This document shows positions 37,701 through 53,394 of a stretch of DNA of 64,000 bases, piece after piece. Under the pieces are notes generated by a model that saw only the letters and a program-made list of their open reading frames with translations, ran no database searches and had not been told where the DNA came from. The first letter of the stretch is position 1. Every line of letters begins with the position of its first letter. The position numbers and the translations under genes were made by a program. Origin of the DNA: Stenocarpella maydis (lineage: Eukaryota; Ascomycota; Sordariomycetes; Diaporthales; Diaporthaceae); NCBI GenBank assembly GCA_002270565.1, contig NQMI01000018.1:310001-374000 (forward strand). Reading direction: 5' to 3'.

Positions 37701-40700
37701 ACGATGGGCTAGAGCCCTCTAAAACCCATAAACCACTGCTAAAGAGGTACAGGGTTATAGGGGCTCGCTGTGAGGTCTTCCTGCCTGAAGAAAAGCGTCA
37801 GAAGGGCTACAAGCTAGCCCCGAGGACGGAGACGGGCTATTTGCTAGCGGTATTAGGGAATAATACATATCAAGTATATATCCCTAAACGGCATACTGTT
37901 CTAAAGACCTCTATTCTCAAGATCTATGAGGAATTAAGCAGTATAGATACTGGTAGCGGTTTTGGGCCAGAAGGGGTATTAGAGGGTCCCCTAGACCCTC
38001 TACATAGGGATGTAGACCCTACAACCGCTGTACCTATTGGGTCTCAAATAGACCCCCTAGGAGGGCCTCTCTCAGGCCCTACAATACCTGCTGGGTCTCA
38101 AATAGACCCCCCAGAAGAGCCTCTCTCAGGCTTACCTGCACTTTCTGCAGAAGGGGACCCCACTGTGGGTTCCGGGGAATTAGAGGATATAGGGCCTAAT
38201 TTAGGCCCTACAAAGTCGTCCCCAGAGGGTATAGGGCCAACTCTACCTGAAGAAATGGACCTATCATACGCCAAACAGATCGTCTACTCTATCTTCAAAA
38301 GAGCACGCCAAATAGCGTTTAGTACTACAAACGCTGCAGCCCCCCAGACCTGGAAACAGGTGCTAAAAAGCCCTAATAGGGCTAAATGGCTACAGGCGAT
38401 CTATAGCGAATTTGAGCAATTAATTTTGCAAAATACCCTCGAATTTTGGCCAGCAAATCAGCTTCCAGAAGGTCGAAAGCCTATAACCAGTCGACTAGTC
38501 CTACGAGAGAAAAAGGACGAGAATAATAGGGTCTTTAAATTTAAAGCCCGATTAGTAGTCAGAGGATTTCAACAGAGGAAAGGGGTAGATTTTACCGAGA
38601 CCTTCGCCTCAACCTCTAGCCCTCCTACCTGGAGGGTACTACTAGCACTAGCTGCTATTCTTGACTGGGAAATCGAGCAGATCGATTTTATAGGTGCCTT
38701 CCTAAATAGTACGCTGAAAGAACAGGTCTTTATGGAGCTTCCAGAGGGGTTCAAAGAATTTGCCGCCCAAACTAGTAGCCAAATTCATCGGCTATTAACT
38801 AGGGCTGGCTATAACCCCTCTGATCAGCAGATAATTCGGCTAAATAAAGCTCTATATGGCCTAAAGCAGGCCCCTAGGGAGTGGCAACAGATAGTTATTG
38901 ACCTTCTGAAAGGTCTAGGCTTCAAACCGCTACTCTCAGACTCCGCCGTCTTCTACAGCAGGGCGTCAGGCCTATTTATAGTGTCCTACGTCGACGACTG
39001 CCTAATAATAGGGCCTGGAATCTCCAAAATTCAGGCCCTAAAACGCCAAATCCATAAGGCGTATGCTATAGAAGACAGGGGCCCTGCAAGCTTCTTTCTA
39101 GGTGTTCGAATTATTAGGGACCGCCCTAATCGAACCCTATGGCTCTCCCAGAGCCAGTATATTGAGGAAGCTATTAGAACCTTCAACTTAGAGGGTTCTA
39201 GGCCTATTTCAGTTCCTCTCCAGCCAAACTTAGTCAACTTAGGCCCTATCGAAGGGCCTATACTCGACCGAATTCGACACAAGCGCTTTCAGGCTATAGT
39301 NNNNTGGGTCTCAAATAGACCCCCTAGGAGGGCCTCTCTCAGGCCCTACAATACCTGCTGGGTCTCAAATAGACCCCCCAGAAGAGCCTCTCTCAGGCTT
39401 ACCTGCACTTTCTGCAGAAGGGGACCCCACTGTGGGTTCCGGGGAATTAGAGGATATAGGGCCTAATTTAGGCCCTACAAAGTCGTCCCCAGAGGGTATA
39501 GGGCCAACTCTACCTGAAGAAATGGACCTATCATACGCCAAACAGATCGTCTACTCTATCTTCAAAAGAGCACGCCAAATAGCGTTTAGTACTACAAACG
39601 CTGCAGCCCCCCAGACCTGGAAACAGGTGCTAAAAAGCCCTAATAGGGCTAAATGGCTACAGGCGATCTATAGCGAATTTGAGCAATTAATTTTGCAAAA
39701 TACCCTCGAATTTTGGCCAGCAAATCAGCTTCCAGAAGGTCGAAAGCCTATAACCAGTCGACTAGTCCTACGAGAGAAAAAGGACGAGAATAATAGGGTC
39801 TTTAAATTTAAAGCCCGATTAGTAGTCAGAGGATTTCAACAGAGGAAAGGGGTAGATTTTACCGAGACCTTCGCCTCAACCTCTAGCCCTCCTACCTGGA
39901 GGGTACTACTAGCACTAGCTGCTATTCTTGACTGGGAAATCGAGCAGATCGATTTTATAGGTGCCTTCCTAAATAGTACGCTGAAAGAACAGGTCTTTAT
40001 GGAGCTTCCAGAGGGGTTCAAAGAATTTGCCGCCCAAACTAGTAGCCAAATTCATCGGCTATTAACTAGGGCTGGCTATAACCCCTCTGATCAGCAGATA
40101 ATTCGGCTAAATAAAGCTCTATATGGCCTAAAGCAGGCCCCTAGGGAGTGGCAACAGATAGTTATTGACCTTCTGAAAGGTCTAGGCTTCAAACCGCTAC
40201 TCTCAGACTCCGCCGTCTTCTACAGCAGGGCGTCAGGCCTATTTATAGTGTCCTACGTCGACGACTGCCTAATAATAGGGCCTGGAATCTCCAAAATTCA
40301 GGCCCTAAAACGCCAAATCCATAAGGCGTATGCTATAGAAGACAGGGGCCCTGCAAGCTTCTTTCTAGGTGTTCGAATTATTAGGGACCGCCCTAATCGA
40401 ACCCTATGGCTCTCCCAGAGCCAGTATATTGAGGAAGCTATTAGAACCTTCAACTTAGAGGGTTCTAGGCCTATTTCAGTTCCTCTCCAGCCAAACTTAG
40501 TCAACTTAGGCCCTATCGAAGGGCCTATACTCGACCGAATTCGACACAAGCGCTTTCAGGCTATAGTAGGTACCGCTATGTATTTAGTTACCCAAACTAG
40601 GCCTGATATCAGCTTCCCGGTCCAGTGGCTAGCCAGAGCCTTCCAAGCATCTAAATCTCAGCATTTAGTAGCTGCACAGAACCTATTTAGGTACCTAAAT

Positions 40701-41167
40701 AGCCATCGACACCTTGCTATTAGGTATTCTGCTAGGGGTCTCAAAGACTCCCTACAGAGCTCTCTCCTAGAGCCTATAGGCTATTCTGATAGCGACTATG
40801 CTGGGGATAAGGCCTCCTCTAAATCAACGTATGGGTATGTATTTACCCTAGGAGGAGGGCCTATTTCTTGGAAATCAAAGCGAGGAAGCACTATAGCGTT
40901 ATCAACGCTAGAGGCTGAATTTATAGGGCTTATAGAGGCTACTCGGGAAATCCAGTGGCTTCGAGGGCTCTATATAGAACTGAATAGGCCTATTCCTAGG
41001 CCAACTATCCTCTATGGAGATAATACGGGCGCTATCTCCACTGCTAAGGACCCTTCACACCATCAACGAACTAAGCATACGCTTCTTAGGTACCACTACC
41101 TACGTGCTGAAGTTCAGAAGGGGACCCTCGAAGTTAAATACCTCGAGACCAGTAAAATGGTAGCAGA
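34793..41167 (+). CDS. Copia gag-pol polyprotein, interrupted by an assembly gap
   Basis: The first part (34793-39300) runs from Met through gag (DFSKELSKKVYTFPETYRLKGPENFDQWKQ region), protease (ALLYDTGSTVHIV), integrase zinc-binding HKRLGH...CLAC, the integrase core (LIVDRKSRFRWL, FHFDGGKE, EQNGLIERS) and reverse transcriptase (KARLVVRGF, QIDFIGAFLN, LNKALYGLKQ, VSYVDDCLI). After the gap, 39305-40567 repeats 38038-39300. New sequence from 40568 adds the RNase H part (TRPDIS, GYSDSDYAGD, SWKSKRGSTIALSTLEAEF, YGDN, RTKH). The frame at 40568 continues that at 39300 exactly if the repeat is removed, giving about 1,700 residues. No CCHC zinc knuckle is visible in gag. Codon use is A/T-rich at third positions, unlike the flanking genes. 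Confidence 0.85.
38038..39300 (+). repeat. Left copy of the 1,263-bp duplicated segment
   Basis: Starts TGGGTCTCAAATAGACC inside the integrase-RT spacer and ends CAGGCTATAGT in RT/RNase H, at the N gap. Appears identical base for base to 39305-40567. Confidence 0.9.
39301..39304. other. Assembly gap (NNNN)
   Basis: Four N bases separating the two identical 1,263-bp copies. The sequence after the gap restarts 1,263 bp back, which is what two overlapping contigs joined without merging would look like. Confidence 0.9.
39305..40567 (+). repeat. Right copy of the 1,263-bp duplicated segment
   Basis: Identical in my reading to 38038-39300, in the same orientation. It carries reverse transcriptase a second time. 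After 40567 the sequence continues with unique RNase H coding sequence. Confidence 0.9.
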
Positions 41168-41168
41168 N

Positions 41169-41678
41169 CTAGCAAGGAGTTACCCTAGACTTGCGAGTCA
41201 GGCGATTTTCGCTAAGTACGCCCAGTGCGTGCGTGACGCAAGATGAGTTTGGTGGCCGTGAGTCGATTATTTTGGCCTGCATTTGCACCTTAATTCAGAC
41301 CTCTGCATTACCCTTATTTCTTACCCAAAAAGTATATGACTTAGTGCATTGGATAGCCTGATTTCTGAAGTTTGTATGTACTTAATTTGGGCATTGCTAG
41401 GGCTATGGTTGGCTGGCTGCTTGGAACCAAAGATGGTGTGTTGGAAGGGCGAATTTTCCGGCATTTGCAAATTTGCACCAGAGCCGACCGCAGCGTGCCC
41501 AGGGGTGAGACGACGTCGGAGGGTATATAAGGAGGGCTTACAGAAGCCCAACTTAATTCAATACAAAGTTGTCCAGACCATTGTCAATCGTCCCAATTCG
41601 CCTCAGAGCACCATACTGCGACCCTGCCGAAACACACACACGCTGAACTGAATGCTATTCTATAGCACAAATTCATCA
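41169..41678 (+). repeat. 3' LTR of the copia element, first part missing
   Basis: Begins CTAGCAAGGAGTTACCC directly after the ambiguous base at 41168 and ends ATTCATCA, matching the 5' LTR end. It matches the 5' LTR from about 33835 onward, with many differences concentrated in the first half. The last part (from GGAACCAAAGATGGTGTG) is nearly identical. The missing first ~85 bp coincide with the N, so this is probably an assembly loss. Confidence 0.8.
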
Positions 41679-47487: not shown

Positions 47488-48983
47488 TTACTGAGTGGCA
47501 CATTGAGTTGTTCCTTCTTCTTCCTCCATATCTTCCCAATCGCCACCGAACCTCGCATCTCCTGAGTGGGCACCCATCTGTTGTAGCACAAAGGAGTCAG
47601 TTGCAGGTTCATGTAGGATCAGGAGTCGCTTGGCCACTTCTCACCTCCTCGATATCAACATCCTCTTCGTAGTCTACCTCGTCAACCTCCTCCGTGGCAA
47701 TTGGGGGTGCCGGGGGAGGCAGCAGCTTCTGCAGAGCCTCATACGACTTGTCGTCACTCAACCACCCGTTCTCGGGGAACTCGATCTTGGCGATCAGGTA
47801 GAGGTCGCCCTTGGTGTCGCCCCTCTCGAGCGGCATACCCTCCCCGGCAACCTTGATTACCTCGTTGGGCCGCAGGATCTTACCGCGGGGGAAGTCGATG
47901 TGGATTCCGCGCCCGTCAAGGTGCTTCAGGACCACTCTTGAGAATCCGCAGAGGGACTCGGCGAGGGTCACGTTCAGGTCAGCAGACAGGTCCTGGCCGA
48001 TCCTTGTAAAGACGTCGTGCGGCTCCTCGACCAGCGTGAAGATGATATCTCCAGGCGTCTGATCGGGATGCTGGTCAGCCTCGCCCTCGAGCCTGATCTG
48101 CTTGCCCTGCATGGAGCCCCGAGGGATGTATATCTCGAGGGGCTTGATCTCGTCGACGATGCGCTTGCCTTTGCACCTCTTGCAGCGGTCCTTCTCCTTG
48201 TAGTAGTTCCCTGAGCCCTGGCAGTGGTCACACTGCACCTGGGCCCTGCGCACCATTCCCGGGCCGATCTGCTGGAACGCCTCCTGGAAGCCGTTTCCTT
48301 TGCAGCGATCGCAGGTCTGTGGCTTGACCTTCTCTTTGCCGCCGGAGCCCTTGCACTGGCTGCAGAGCACCTTCTTGTTCGCCGAGAACCTGACGGTCTT
48401 GCCCTTATAGAGCTCCTCTAGGGTCACCTTGTACTGCTGCTCCTCGTCGCCGCCGCGCCTCGGCCGCCGTGGTCCGCCGGCTCCGCCACCGACGCCCATG
48501 CCGAACATTTGCGCCAGGATGTCGTTCAGGTCGACTTCGGCACCACCAGGACCGCTGCCACGGGATGGGTCGAAGGCGGCCATGCCATATTGGTCATACA
48601 TCTCTCGTTTCTCGTCGTCGCGGAGGATCTCGTAGGCTTGGGTGGCCTGCTTGAACTTCGCCTCGGCCTCCTCACGGCGGTCCTCGGGAACCTTATCAGG
48701 GTGGTGTTGCAAGGCAGCCTGCGATCAGACAAGGTCAGCATATGCGGTTGACGCCACTAGGCTCGTGGGAGGAGGGGTGCACACCTTCCTGTATGCCTTC
48801 TTGATCTGATCTGCAGTTGCAGTTCTCTCCACTCCAAGCAGCCCTGAATCTTGTCAGTCCGAGTCCTAACGCGGAGGTTGCAGTTTAAGTGGTTCGGGAG
48901 GTTTGGAAAGAACAACACAACTCACCGTAGAGGTCAACATCCTCTTGCCCCCCAGGACCGTTACCGGGTCCGCCACTATCCAT
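47488..48983 (-). CDS. ydj1: Type I (class A) DnaJ/Hsp40 co-chaperone, Ydj1/Mas5-like
   Basis: CDS complement(join(47488..47577,47645..48718,48785..48843,48926..48983)), 426 residues. The J domain is rebuilt across two introns: [47 protein letters not shown], with the HPD motif. Then come a G-rich region ([16 protein letters not shown]), four zinc-finger repeats ([31 protein letters not shown]) and the client-binding beta domains. The last intron (GTGAGA...ACAG, 67 nt) leads to a tail ending QCATQ, a CaaX farnesylation signal equivalent to yeast Ydj1 CASQ; reading through instead would end without it. The protein stimulates Hsp70 ATPase in the cytosol and at ER/mitochondrial membranes. It lies next to and transcribed in the same direction as the U2 snRNA gene. 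Confidence 0.94.
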
Positions 48984-49884
48984 TTTGGGTCTTATTCACG
49001 ACGTTCGCTGTGTGTGATAGAGCAGAGGAAAACTCGGCGACAGAGAATGGAGTTTTGGCGGGGGAGGCCTGGTTGCAGATGGGAGTAGAAGTGACCTAGA
49101 CTGCGAAGGCTGCTGCTGAGGCAGCAGAAGGTGACGGATCAGGCACTCGGGAATCAGAATGGAAGGAATGGTTTTGTCATCCAAGTTGGCTTTAGGCGCA
49201 GCAAAATCCGATGATGCAGGAGATGGAAAATATCCGTAATCTTTCAGCTTGGGTGCAGACAAAAGCGCGAGTTCCCAGGATTACCCCACGCTCCAACTTT
49301 CTCTCCAACTCGAGCACAGTGAAAGTTATCGCTATTACCTTTTTTTCCAGGCAGATCCGAGGTACGTACTCATCCCTCTTCGCCACTGGTGTCCGGCCCG
49401 TCGGTTGTCGTTTCAGGCGTAGCCGGAGAGCAGGTAGGTCGATGCTGACAGCTCTGGGGGTTCGCTAGTCACATGCTGTTAGCCATTGGACCTGGCCTGC
49501 TGAGGCCATTGCTGTCTTTGCTTGGGCATAGCGGCCCCTGCTTGTAGGGCTGACCAGATGCAAAAGTGCAATTTAGTCAAAACGATGCCACCATCTGTTT
49601 ACGCACATGTGTGATGAAACTCTACGTTGAACCGAGAACGACGACTACCTCATGCCCTAGTTACTGATCAGTCTTTCATGCTAACAAAATGTTGTCATTG
49701 TACGGAGCACAAGAAGTGCAGTCGCTCCGTGACCTACGTCAGCCCAGGCGACTTCTCAGCCATAAGGCACAACAGCCCGTACACATCAAGCCAGCACTAC
49801 AACCGGGCGGTGCGACCGCATGACATGGTAGGAGACTCCTTCTTCGCATCCCAGGCAAGCCATAGGAGTACAATGAAAAGAGGT
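48984..49884. other. Intergenic, DnaJ promoter and U2 3' flank
   Basis: About 0.9 kb between the DnaJ start codon and the predicted U2 snRNA 3' end. No protein gene supported on either strand. Confidence 0.6.
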
Positions 49885-50141
49885 TCGCGTCACTCGGAGG
49901 CAGTGTGATACCGAGGACACAGTGGGGGTCGGTCATGAGCAAGCTCAGAGGACCGTCCCCCGGAGGACAAAAATTAGAATAATCACGATTGTACTCCGTA
50001 GAGTACTTTCAGAGATTAAACTGAAAAGAACAGATACTACACTTGATCTAAGCCCTGTTTGACGAAAAGGTGGTTAGCAAGAGGCCCGTGTGGCTTTTTT
50101 TTTTGGTGATTTTGGGGGGCACGTACAAAAGGCAAAGAGAG
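49885..50141 (-). ncRNA. U2: U2 spliceosomal snRNA, split by a 72-nt intron
   Basis: Exon 1 is about 50127-50141 and exon 2 about 49885-50054, both minus strand, mature length about 185 nt. Joining them gives TCTCTTTGCCTTTT|GGCTTAGATC, the usual fungal U2 5' end. Exon 2 then shows AGATCAAGTG (U6 pairing), the branch-site-recognition GTAGTA (50040-50035), stem IIa GTACTCTACGGAGTAC (49991-50006), the Sm site AATTTTTG (49975-49968), stem III CGGTC...GACCG (49955-49930) and stem-loop IV CTCGGTATCACACTGCCTCC, comparable to the human U2B'' loop. The intron (50055-50126) has GTACGT at its 5' end, GCTAACC with the branch A 19 nt from the acceptor, and ACAG at its 3' end. The exact mature ends are estimated to within a few bases. 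Confidence 0.93.
50055..50126 (-). other. Spliceosomal-type intron inside U2 snRNA
   Basis: 72 nt with a consensus donor GTACGT, branch site CTAAC (50077-50073) and acceptor ACAG. It interrupts the loop of stem-loop I. Its removal is required to rebuild the conserved GCCTTTTGGCTTAGATC block. Confidence 0.85.
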
Positions 50142-50546
50142 CTGAGGAGAAAAGAGAGAAAGGAAGGGAAAGGTGACGGTTGAGGAACGTGGTTTAAGTA
50201 TTTCGCAGCAGTGGATTCTGCCGCGGTGCAGACGTTTTTTCACCGCCTTCCCCACTAGGTCGGCGCGGTCCTGAATTGACGGCAGGGCCAGGGCCTACGG
50301 TGAAAGTGCCTACAGTGCATCTCGATTTGCACATCAAATTGAGTTCTGCACAGAGACAGTGCCAACTCACTTCTGCGAACACCACATCCTTCTCCTGTAT
50401 CATAACCTTGTCTGATTTGCTGCTGAGGATATGGCACTCATGCGTTCAAATTTTTCAGAGACCCTCATTTCATATCAACCCTGAAGGTTTCCTCACACCA
50501 CCTCACCTCACTAAGACGCACCCTTTATGGTCTGACCCGCTGCGAG
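50142..50546. promoter_or_regulatory. Divergent promoter region, U2 snRNA / mitochondrial GluRS
   Basis: 405 bp between the U2 5' end (minus) and the GluRS start codon (plus). No snRNA promoter element with a known consensus in this lineage was identified. Confidence 0.4.
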
Positions 50547-53394
50547 ATGAGCAACCTACTGCTCCTGAGGAGAAGGCTGCACCCATGGTCTCTATCCTCC
50601 AGGCTTAGCCAAGTGAGACGATATGCACTGATTGGCAAGCCGAGCCAGAACCAAAAACCAATATGGAGTTTGCCCGATTCTCCGGCACGAACCCGGTTCG
50701 CTCCGTCACCGACAGGCTATCTTCACCTGGGGTCTCTGCGAACGGCACTTTTTAATTACTTGCTGGCACAAGCAACCGGTGGCCAGTTCATTATTCGTCT
50801 GGAGGACACTGACCAGGCACGATTCGTTCAGGATGCGGAGTCTCGCCTGTATCAGGATATGCAATGGGCTGGCTTGACCTGGGATGAAGGTCCGGATAAG
50901 GGGGGACCCTTCGGCCCGTACAAGCAATCTGAACGGCTTGGCCTGTACAGAAAACATGCGGAAATTCTCCTGGAGAAAGGCCATGCCTTCCGCTGTTTCT
51001 GCTCTAAGGAAGACCTCGAATTCAACCTACAGCAGGCTACCAACAGCGGCCTTGTGGCTCATTACCCTGGCACATGCATGGGCATCTCAAGGTCCGAGTC
51101 CGACAGGCGCGCTGCGAATGGCGAGCCGCATGTGGTGCGGTTCAAGACTTCCGAGGTGCCTGTATCTGCGCCAGACCTGGTCTACGGCGCCTACAAAAAG
51201 GCCGAACGCGAGGATAACTTTATCATCATGAAGAGTGACGGCTTCCCGACCTATCACTTTGCCAATGTGGTCGATGATCACTTCATGAAGATCACTCATG
51301 TCATACGGGGCGCCGAGTGGCTCATATCGACCCCTAAACACGTCGAGCTTTACAACGCCTTTGGTTGGCAACCTCCCAATTTTGCCCACGTCGGCCTGCT
51401 GGTGGATCATCAGCGGCAAAAGCTGAGCAAGAGAGACATTAACAACATCGGGATAGCGGTCTTCCGTGACACAAATATCATGCCAGAAGCCTTGCTCAAT
51501 TTCTCAGCCTTGCTGGGCTGGGACCCCAGCTTGCAAAACCGGCCGCATCTGGACAAGAGGGGAAGAATGACGCTGCAGGAAATGAAAGACAACGTGAGCC
51601 AAATTTGCGATGCTTGCTGTGTAATTGCAGGGCTGACTAAAGCAGTTCACTTTGAAATTCACACGAGGAGACATAGTGGTCGACCTGGCCAAACTCAAGT
51701 TCTTCCAGGGCCGATTCACGCGCGATTTGATATCTGGTGAAATCCCGGATCCTCCTGCCCTCAGTCGTCGCATTCTCAGGCCAATTCAGTCTGAGCTGGA
51801 GCAATTAAGCCAAGACATATCGGAAAATGCGCAGTCAGACCTTGTAGCAGAGGTTTTGGATGGCAGACCTAAAGAGTCCATAGATAGGACACAGCACACA
51901 GAGGATTACATCTACCAGGTCGTGAAGGCCTCGAAAAGCCCAATGGAAAATCCTCGCCAGTTCATAAGGGACAACCTTTATGCTTTCTGGCCACCACCGA
52001 CTCTTTCTTACAAGAACAGCTTCGGAACGCTCCAAAGCGGAATACATCGCATTAAACTGGTGAAGAAAACTGAGAGAATATTGAACGTGGACATCTCCAA
52101 GGTGCTGCGATGCTTTAGGCTTTCACTTTCCGAGCTCACAGAGCAAGAATGGACCTTGGAGAATGTTGGGGCCAAGGCCAAGGAGCTTGCTGATTCCGTC
52201 ACGTATTACAACACTGAGAAAGATACCCTATTGGAGAATGGCGCAGGGTGGAAGTTCTTGAGATGGGCCCTCCTTGCGGGAATGTCCGGACTGTCCGTTG
52301 CGCCCACGATGGTGCTTCTGGGGCGGGAGGAAACACTCAAACGCATCCGAAAAGCACGCAAGTGTGCCGTGGTCCAAGAAGAAAAGCTGGCGTCCGAGGC
52401 AAGAAAGGCAGCGACGCTACGAGAGTATGCACAGATGCACGCCAAAATCATGGGGCATTCCACCGGCAGAAGCCAAACGTCAACAGACGACCAGGTGAGC
52501 GAGCCCCGAAATGTGAAGATTCGGATCATTCAAGAGCTACCCAAAGAGGGGCTTACAGGAACTCGGAACGAAGCTAAAGGGTTCTTGAGGCCGAGTCATC
52601 CTGAGCTGCACCTACCAGAAAAAGGGCCCTTCGTGTCCCAGTCCCAGCCCCAGCAGAGGCCATACGTCGTGGAGGATCGAAGACCAGAAGACAGTACGTC
52701 CATGAAGTTCCTGAGCCCCGATGAGTTCAAAACCGGCGCCCGCCACATCTTGAGCAAGGAGGAGCAGCCAGGTCCCGCCAACAGCCTTTCACGGAGGCGA
52801 AGCCAGAAACGCGCCAAGAACAAGTCTGATGCGAAGAGGGCGGCCTGCAGGTCTCCAGCGGCGGACGAAGCAAACCCGTTTGCGCCTGGTGGCTCTTTCT
52901 TCGCGCCCATACCAGAGACAGGAACCAAGCACAGCAAGACCGAAAGCACTCGGCCGCAGACTCTCACGCCGCAACCGCCAGGCAGCGCCAGCAACACTGC
53001 GCAGCCTGGGAGTGCCGAGACCCAGCCCGCATCCTTCCAGCCCATGTCTGATGCCCAACATAGCCTGCATTTCAAACATATGATGCTTCAGAAGGCATAT
53101 GAGCGAAGGAGGCAGGCCGGGGCCGGGGAGCGGCTGAAGTTTGCGGAGCGGAAGCCGGGGCAGCCGGGCGCTGCTGGCGGTGATGCTCCCGGGCCCGCTG
53201 GCCCTTTCTACGCCGGGCCGATGGTGTACCATCCCCTCAGGAAAGAGGTGCATGGAATGGCTTCCAGAGATGTTGGGAGTGAAGGCTCGGAAGCTCCGAA
53301 AGATATTGCAGAAAGGGACAGGGTTGCGCTGGCCGGAGCTGAGCAGGAGCTGCAGGAGTCCTGGGTTAAGCGCGGCAAGTCTATGGGGTCGTAA
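50547..53394 (+). CDS. MSE1: Mitochondrial glutamyl-tRNA synthetase with long C-terminal extension
   Basis: CDS join(50547..51593,51646..53394), 931 residues. The 52-nt intron (GTGAGC...GCAG) joins EMKDN|FTLKFTRGD in frame. An Arg-rich N-terminus (MSNLLLLRRRLHPW) looks like a mitochondrial presequence. The class I catalytic domain shows RFAPSPTGYLHLGSLRTALFN (HIGH-type motif as HLGS), LEDTDQARFV and the KMSKS-type loop KLSKRD, and is followed by the anticodon-binding region ending ...GLSVAPTMVLLGREETLKRI at about residue 550. It charges tRNA-Glu (and in many mitochondria tRNA-Gln) in the matrix. Residues ~560-931 are an added low-complexity tail rich in P, Q, S, R and K, with NPFAPGGSFFAPIP and HSLHFKHMMLQKAYERRRQAG as its most ordered-looking parts. 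Mitochondrial GluRS proteins usually end near 500-600 residues, so the tail is unusual. Confidence 0.9.

Follow-up and report, generated by a model that had tools for sequence, protein, structure and literature searches.

The minus strand of a 64,000-nt stretch of the Stenocarpella maydis genome (contig NQMI01000018.1, positions 310,001 to 374,000; the window, in whose numbering all positions below are given) carries, from 50143 to 49878, a gene for U2 small nuclear RNA (snRNA) that is split by an insert of 72 nt (50126-50055). It is very probable that this is a working U2 gene and that a short spliceosomal intron interrupts the stem I loop of its precursor. U2 is an RNA of the machine that removes introns, and making U2 from split genes would need that same machine. 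The initial annotation of this DNA had described a U2 gene with a spliceosomal-type intron, a description strongly supported by a second split paralogue, retained splice signals, a shared promoter and 3' element, and compensatory changes.

Structure of the split U2 gene

Read on the minus strand, exon 1 (50127..50143; 17 nt, AGCTCTCTTTGCCTTTT) ends with GCCTTTT at 50127. It is followed by the insert, GTACGT...TTGCTAACC...AAACAG, and then by GGCTTAGATCAAGTGTAGTA, so that the letters on which the initial annotation relied (GCCTTTT, GTACGT, 72 nt and ACAG) are present on this strand. The insert (50055..50126) is of the GT-AG type and sits at the tip of stem I, in its apical loop. Its 5' splice site is GTACGT (50121..50126), and its 3' splice site is the CAG of AAACAG (50055..50057). 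The branch site CTAAC (50073..50077) is embedded in TGCTAACC within a region reading TTGCTAACCACC; the branch A is 50074, with the acceptor 19 nt away. Exon 2 (49878..50054, minus strand, its 3' end taken from the Rfam match) comprises the rest of stem I, the branch-site recognition sequence GTAGTA (50040-50035), stem IIa, the Sm site (49974-49968) and stems III and IV, all placed by alignment to the Rfam U2 model RF00004 and named by the usual terms for U2 landmarks. The exact start of exon 1 is a prediction; the exon is supported by its identity to that of a second split copy (17/17) and by promoter spacing.

The match to RF00004 (cmscan; 49878-50074, model positions 1-192) scored 129.5 bits against a cut-off of 46, with an E-value of 5.2e-26, and was the sole Rfam hit at the gathering threshold across the window. 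GUAGUA, stem IIa, the Sm site and stems III and IV all aligned to the model, which identifies the locus as U2 and agrees with the list of later landmarks (GTAGTA, stem IIa, Sm site, stem-loop IV) drawn up at the outset. Because the gene is split, the leading 20 bases of the match (50074-50055) are intron, and non-standard stem I pairs are flagged. On the intronless paralogue L003 described below, the model covered the true 5' end and flagged 0 stem I pairs. RF00004 thus takes intron bases as the 5' end and scores a split gene as intact, which calls for caution in annotation. It had also been claimed that the unspliced sequence is unlike U2. This holds insofar as there is no true match before GGCTTAG, but the model does match the unspliced locus with the score given above.

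Joining the two exons yields GCCTTTTGGC and rebuilds the U2 5' end, as had been proposed. The identical sequence occurs in two U2 genes (L028 and L031) on contigs of contaminated prokaryote metagenome-assembled genomes (MAGs). The stem I loop CCTTTTGGC is found in both and in a third such gene, L029, in which the preceding bases lie beyond the contig end. In minimum-energy folds of the joined 5' ends of both split S. maydis copies, stem I forms as in L003; the U2 5' domain with stem I is therefore complete once the exons are joined. The MAG genes came from pattern searches: patterns of 34 and 30 bases gave 0 matches on viral contigs and a 25-base pattern gave 0 on prokaryote contigs, while shorter U2 patterns matched one viral contig and four stretches (five matches) on three prokaryote MAG contigs. 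In three of the five MAG matches the stem I loop is visible, and these entered the comparison. A fourth starts past the loop and has the same letters as L031, with which it shares a contig; it may be the same gene. The viral match and L030, on the minus strand of a MAG contig, were rejected, since the sequence beyond the match is unlike U2 in each.

Paralogues and conservation of the splice signals

Three U2 loci above the cut-off were found by an RF00004 search of the genome (53.5 Mb, 312 contigs; 46 of 1047 first-look candidates scored): L001 (contig C246, 130.8 bits), the window gene, L002, and L003 (C243, 127.1 bits). A genome-wide search with a 23-base U2 core, allowing up to 2 mismatches, returned the same three loci and none further. 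L001 carries an insert at the same base position as L002, with a length of 65 nt and the reading GTAGGT...GTGCTAACC...AAACAG. L003 is unsplit, reads GCCTCAATGGCTTAG and has an altered stem I loop, TCAAT instead of TTTT.

While exon 1 is identical in the two split copies, it agrees with L003 in 15/17 ungapped columns. The first 170 bases of exon 2 are identical at 157 positions between L001 and L002. Outside the exons the two copies have drifted, with 40/64 identical bases in the introns, 76/129 upstream and 84/199 downstream. Within the introns the core splice bases (GTA-GT, CTAAC, CAG) are the same at 13/13 positions, compared with 27/51 for the remaining aligned positions (Fisher p 0.0009, excluding 9 gap columns that fall outside the core). 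Since the two copies share one insertion, this test speaks of signals upheld after duplication and not of two insertions. Both introns have the same TGCTAACC, with 16 nt (L001) or 19 nt (L002) between the branch A and the acceptor.

These features agree with the sequence hallmarks of U2-type spliceosomal introns, namely GT-AG ends and a CTRAY branch site 6-36 nt from a YAG acceptor. Among the figures drawn from PMC5832005, the limits for fungal introns are a branch site RCTRAY and a distance of 6-36 nt, and the U3 small nucleolar RNA (snoRNA) introns end in CAG rather than TAG by 129 to 8. The values of L001 and L002 (16 and 19 nt, RCTRAC, CAG) fall within these figures for fungal U3 introns and for fungal introns generally. 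Judged by its sequence, the insert is very probably a real intron, of mRNA type and lying inside the mature U2 sequence.

The bare pattern GTANGT-CTAAC-YAG occurred twice in the window; 30 simulated sequences contained it 1.27 times on average (maximum 5), so it is uninformative by itself. With donor and acceptor fixed, the product of three separately estimated chances was about 5e-7; the joint event occurred in 0/400,000 trials, which are too few to measure it. A DNA search of the genome with each U2 intron (E up to 10), aimed at the numerous close copies that an introner-like mobile intron would have, returned the query alone; the search skips very common words, the two introns (40/64 identical) missed each other, and diverged copies could escape in the same way.

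Putative expression signals and alternative explanations

The window gene is preceded on the minus strand by the snRNA promoter element GGCAGAATC (50214..50222), 79 nt before exon 1, and by a TATA-like TACTTAA (50194..50200) 13 nt past that element. Farther upstream lies the box GGCGGTGA (50240..50247), exact or near-identical versions of which stand before other small-RNA genes of the genome. Measured from GGCAGAA to exon 1, the spacing is -78 and -79 in the split U2 copies, and it is -82 in L003, -85 in U1, -84 and -87 in U4 and -90 in U3 (gene starts from alignments and by eye). Measured to exon 2 instead, it would be about -160 and -168 in the split copies. Upstream of the U6 locus L004 related boxes were found and no GGCAGAA; none was found upstream of the U5 locus either.

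The pattern GGCAGAATC-N8-30-TAYTTAA occurs at six sites in the 53.5 Mb, compared with none for the reversed control. Five of the sites lie next to two U1 genes, both split U2 genes and one U4 gene. The sixth, L024, has a gap of 29 nt instead of 13-14 nt and no Rfam match at E up to 0.01. L003, U4a and U3 escape the pattern because their boxes are variants. It was the sole route to the second U1 gene (L020, G000:C50); a genome search with RF00003 listed L010 and the weaker L011 (28.8 bits) and not L020, and both U1 genes are below the Rfam U1 cut-off.

Downstream of exon 2, the window gene has a CUUG-looped hairpin and, after it, GAAGAAGG (49838..49868, minus strand). Hairpins of this kind, with CUUG or UUUG in the loop and then a purine-rich, GARGAAG-like run, follow 8 of 9 genes examined (U1 L010, U2 L001-L003, U3 L018, U4 L013 and L014, and U6 L004); the hairpin search found none at the U5 locus, and L020 has a similar one by eye. 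In the eight hairpins 79.2% of the cells are paired, compared with 60.7% in shuffles (0/500 as high) and 33-54% in slid versions, and the covariation score was reached by 0/500 shuffles; the pairing figures are partly selected, since the hairpins were picked by a search that favors pairing. That of the window gene pairs worst of the eight, at 5/9 positions. By analogy with yeasts, in which snRNA 3' ends undergo processing of the RNase III type, the hairpin may be a signal for snRNA 3' processing in S. maydis.

Stem III shows two-sided changes among the three paralogues in 4 of 14 pairs, a number reached by 4/500 shuffles and by 0/6 slid versions. Both unpaired cells (2/42) belong to the intronless L003 and none to the split copies. 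Given a promoter at the usual distance, the 3' hairpin and the compensatory changes in stem III, the split copies do not look like pseudogenes.

The best-placed alternative treats the split copies as pseudogenes or silent relics, with L003 as the source of all U2. L003 is indeed intact, with promoter and 3' hairpin, and it provides one of the two observations that the initial annotation had named as pointing to a pseudogene, an intact intron-free copy in the genome (the other being a lack of spliced reads from this locus). However, both split copies retain exon 1, a 3' domain with compensatory changes in stem III, promoter and splice signals, while it is L003 that combines the unpaired stem III cells with the altered stem I loop. 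The relic explanation is accordingly considered improbable.

Still less probable is that the insert is retained as an enlarged stem I loop of a longer U2. GCC and GGC could still pair around the insert, and the predicted fold of unspliced L002 forms the outer stem I pairs in this way. Moreover, exon 2 contains the part of U2 that forms helix I with U6. Against retention, the core splice signals are upheld in an insert that otherwise drifts and varies in length, and stem I is lost in the predicted fold of unspliced L001. The same observations bear on the initial view that pairing of U2 with U6 has to await removal of the intron. With the insert confined to the stem I apical loop, the helix I strand placed in exon 2 and the outer stem I kept in the predicted fold of unspliced L002, removal before U6 pairing is no established requirement. 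It is highly improbable that the split copies yield a mature U2 whose first base falls within the insert or at its end, with a new 5' end lacking stem I and no intron. RF00004 can be aligned in that way, but the promoter spacing to exon 1 (78-79 nt) is close to that of the unsplit U2, U1, U4 and U3 genes (82-90 nt), the two split copies agree at 17/17 positions of exon 1, and both donor and branch site are upheld.

Several points weigh against a working, intron-bearing U2 gene. Splicing and expression of the split copies are predicted from genomic sequence, as is the start of exon 1. An intact intronless U2 gene is present, and the inserts of L001 and L002 go back by shared descent to one common insertion, so that the recurrence of the arrangement is no independent event. 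Both donors, GTACGT and GTAGGT, deviate by one base from GTRWGT, the pattern of 88/136 canonical U3 donors in the figures from PMC5832005. The RF00004 scores of L001 and L002 refer to the loci with their inserts in place, and the outer stem I pairs formed around the insert in unspliced L002 count here as well. The stem III test is small, with three sequences, and further pair types there did not exceed shuffles (326/500; one of five measures). Besides the selection of the hairpins by pairing, two of the five hairpin measures were weak, namely pairs with two-sided changes (115/500 shuffles) and further pair types (33/500).

If the window gene is a working U2 gene with an intron, the shared snRNA promoter, presumably served by RNA polymerase II, would drive a precursor that begins about 78-79 nt past the first base of GGCAGAA and whose first exon measures about 17 nt. 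Spliceosomes already containing U2, from L003 and from earlier spliced transcripts, would recognize GTACGT, the TGCTAAC branch site and ACAG. GCCTTTT would be joined to GGCTTAG, restoring stem I, and the 3' end would then be made at or near the downstream hairpin. Transcription, splicing, the order of these events and the mechanism of 3' processing are all inferred. By hand count, six pairs including one G-U are possible between the branch site UGCUAAC and the GUAGUA region of the gene's own U2. That U2 would be spliced by spliceosomes containing U2, as the initial annotation had pointed out, holds for the split copies as read here; a strict dependence does not, since the intronless L003 removes any strict chicken-and-egg problem.

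A more speculative extension, which we consider unlikely, is that two of the three U2 genes depend on splicing while L003 acts as a constitutive starter, so that the supply of U2 is tied to splicing capacity by positive feedback and, together with the U6 inserts described below, the active-site RNAs are largely products of splicing. If true, an intron branch site would be read by the same RNA that its gene encodes. Split and unsplit U2 genes side by side offer a natural and genetically simple setting for studying the entry of introns into spliceosomal RNA genes, a possible feedback of splicing on the supply of its own parts, and the splicing of an snRNA precursor whose first exon spans about 17 nt.

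Related intron-bearing genes and genomic context

An mRNA-type intron in the U2 snRNA gene of Rhodotorula hasegawae was described by Takahashi et al. 1993, as cited in PMC2586383; it is the one earlier U2 intron that was traced in the literature. The likeness to S. maydis lies in a spliceosomal-type intron within a fungal U2 gene. The difference lies in the host, since R. hasegawae is a basidiomycete yeast, whereas S. maydis is a filamentous ascomycete with two of its three paralogues found split. For U3 snoRNA genes of Pezizomycotina, split and unsplit paralogues occur together in eight genomes according to the figures in PMC5832005, as they do within one genome for S. maydis U2. Unlike U2, U3 stands outside the spliceosome, so its introns involve no self-reference. 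The sole U3 locus of S. maydis found in an RF00012 search aligned end to end with the fungal U3 model, and no intron was seen in it.

No report of a U2 intron in a filamentous ascomycete was found by title or abstract in the open-licence literature, which is weak evidence of absence. For filamentous ascomycetes the S. maydis U2 genes thus seem to be a new case, one in which a single genome has both split and unsplit paralogues. The phenomenon of a U2 intron is itself not new; the host group, the gene set and the context are.

Introns in fungal U6 snRNA genes are reportedly known, with Schizosaccharomyces pombe and a 2016 account by Canzler et al. named in this connection. They resemble the U2 introns as spliceosomal introns in a gene for a spliceosomal RNA. 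They differ in that U6 is transcribed by RNA polymerase III. Four of the six U6 matches in S. maydis carry intron-like inserts (L005, L006, L007 and L009, on G000 contigs C167, C21, C301 and C68, respectively). Three inserts are located between GAT and TAGCATGG. L006 has two inserts, the second of which splits the ACAGAGA box, and joined L006 reads like a normal U6 up to GGATGAC. The intronless L004 is divergent and has upstream boxes of the snRNA type and the 3' hairpin, and L008 looks degenerate. Only L004 and L005 are above the Rfam cut-off. By eye, several of the U6 inserts contain a stretch resembling the tRNA B-box motif.

In the window, the U2 gene is flanked by frames for a DnaJ-type protein (47609-48724, minus strand) and for a glutamyl-tRNA synthetase (50427-53394, plus strand, two frames). 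Among the 120 matches listed for the latter, the best named relatives are from two members of the Diaporthales, namely Cryphonectria parasitica, with 79% over 80% of the query, and Cytospora mali, with 86% over 71%. The synthetase gene has its own intron of 52 nt, read by eye at about 51594-51645 as GTGAGC...GGCTGAC...CAG. About 9 kb from the U2 gene, an open frame on the plus strand (39300-41246) encodes a reverse transcriptase domain (PF07727), presumably of the Copia type.
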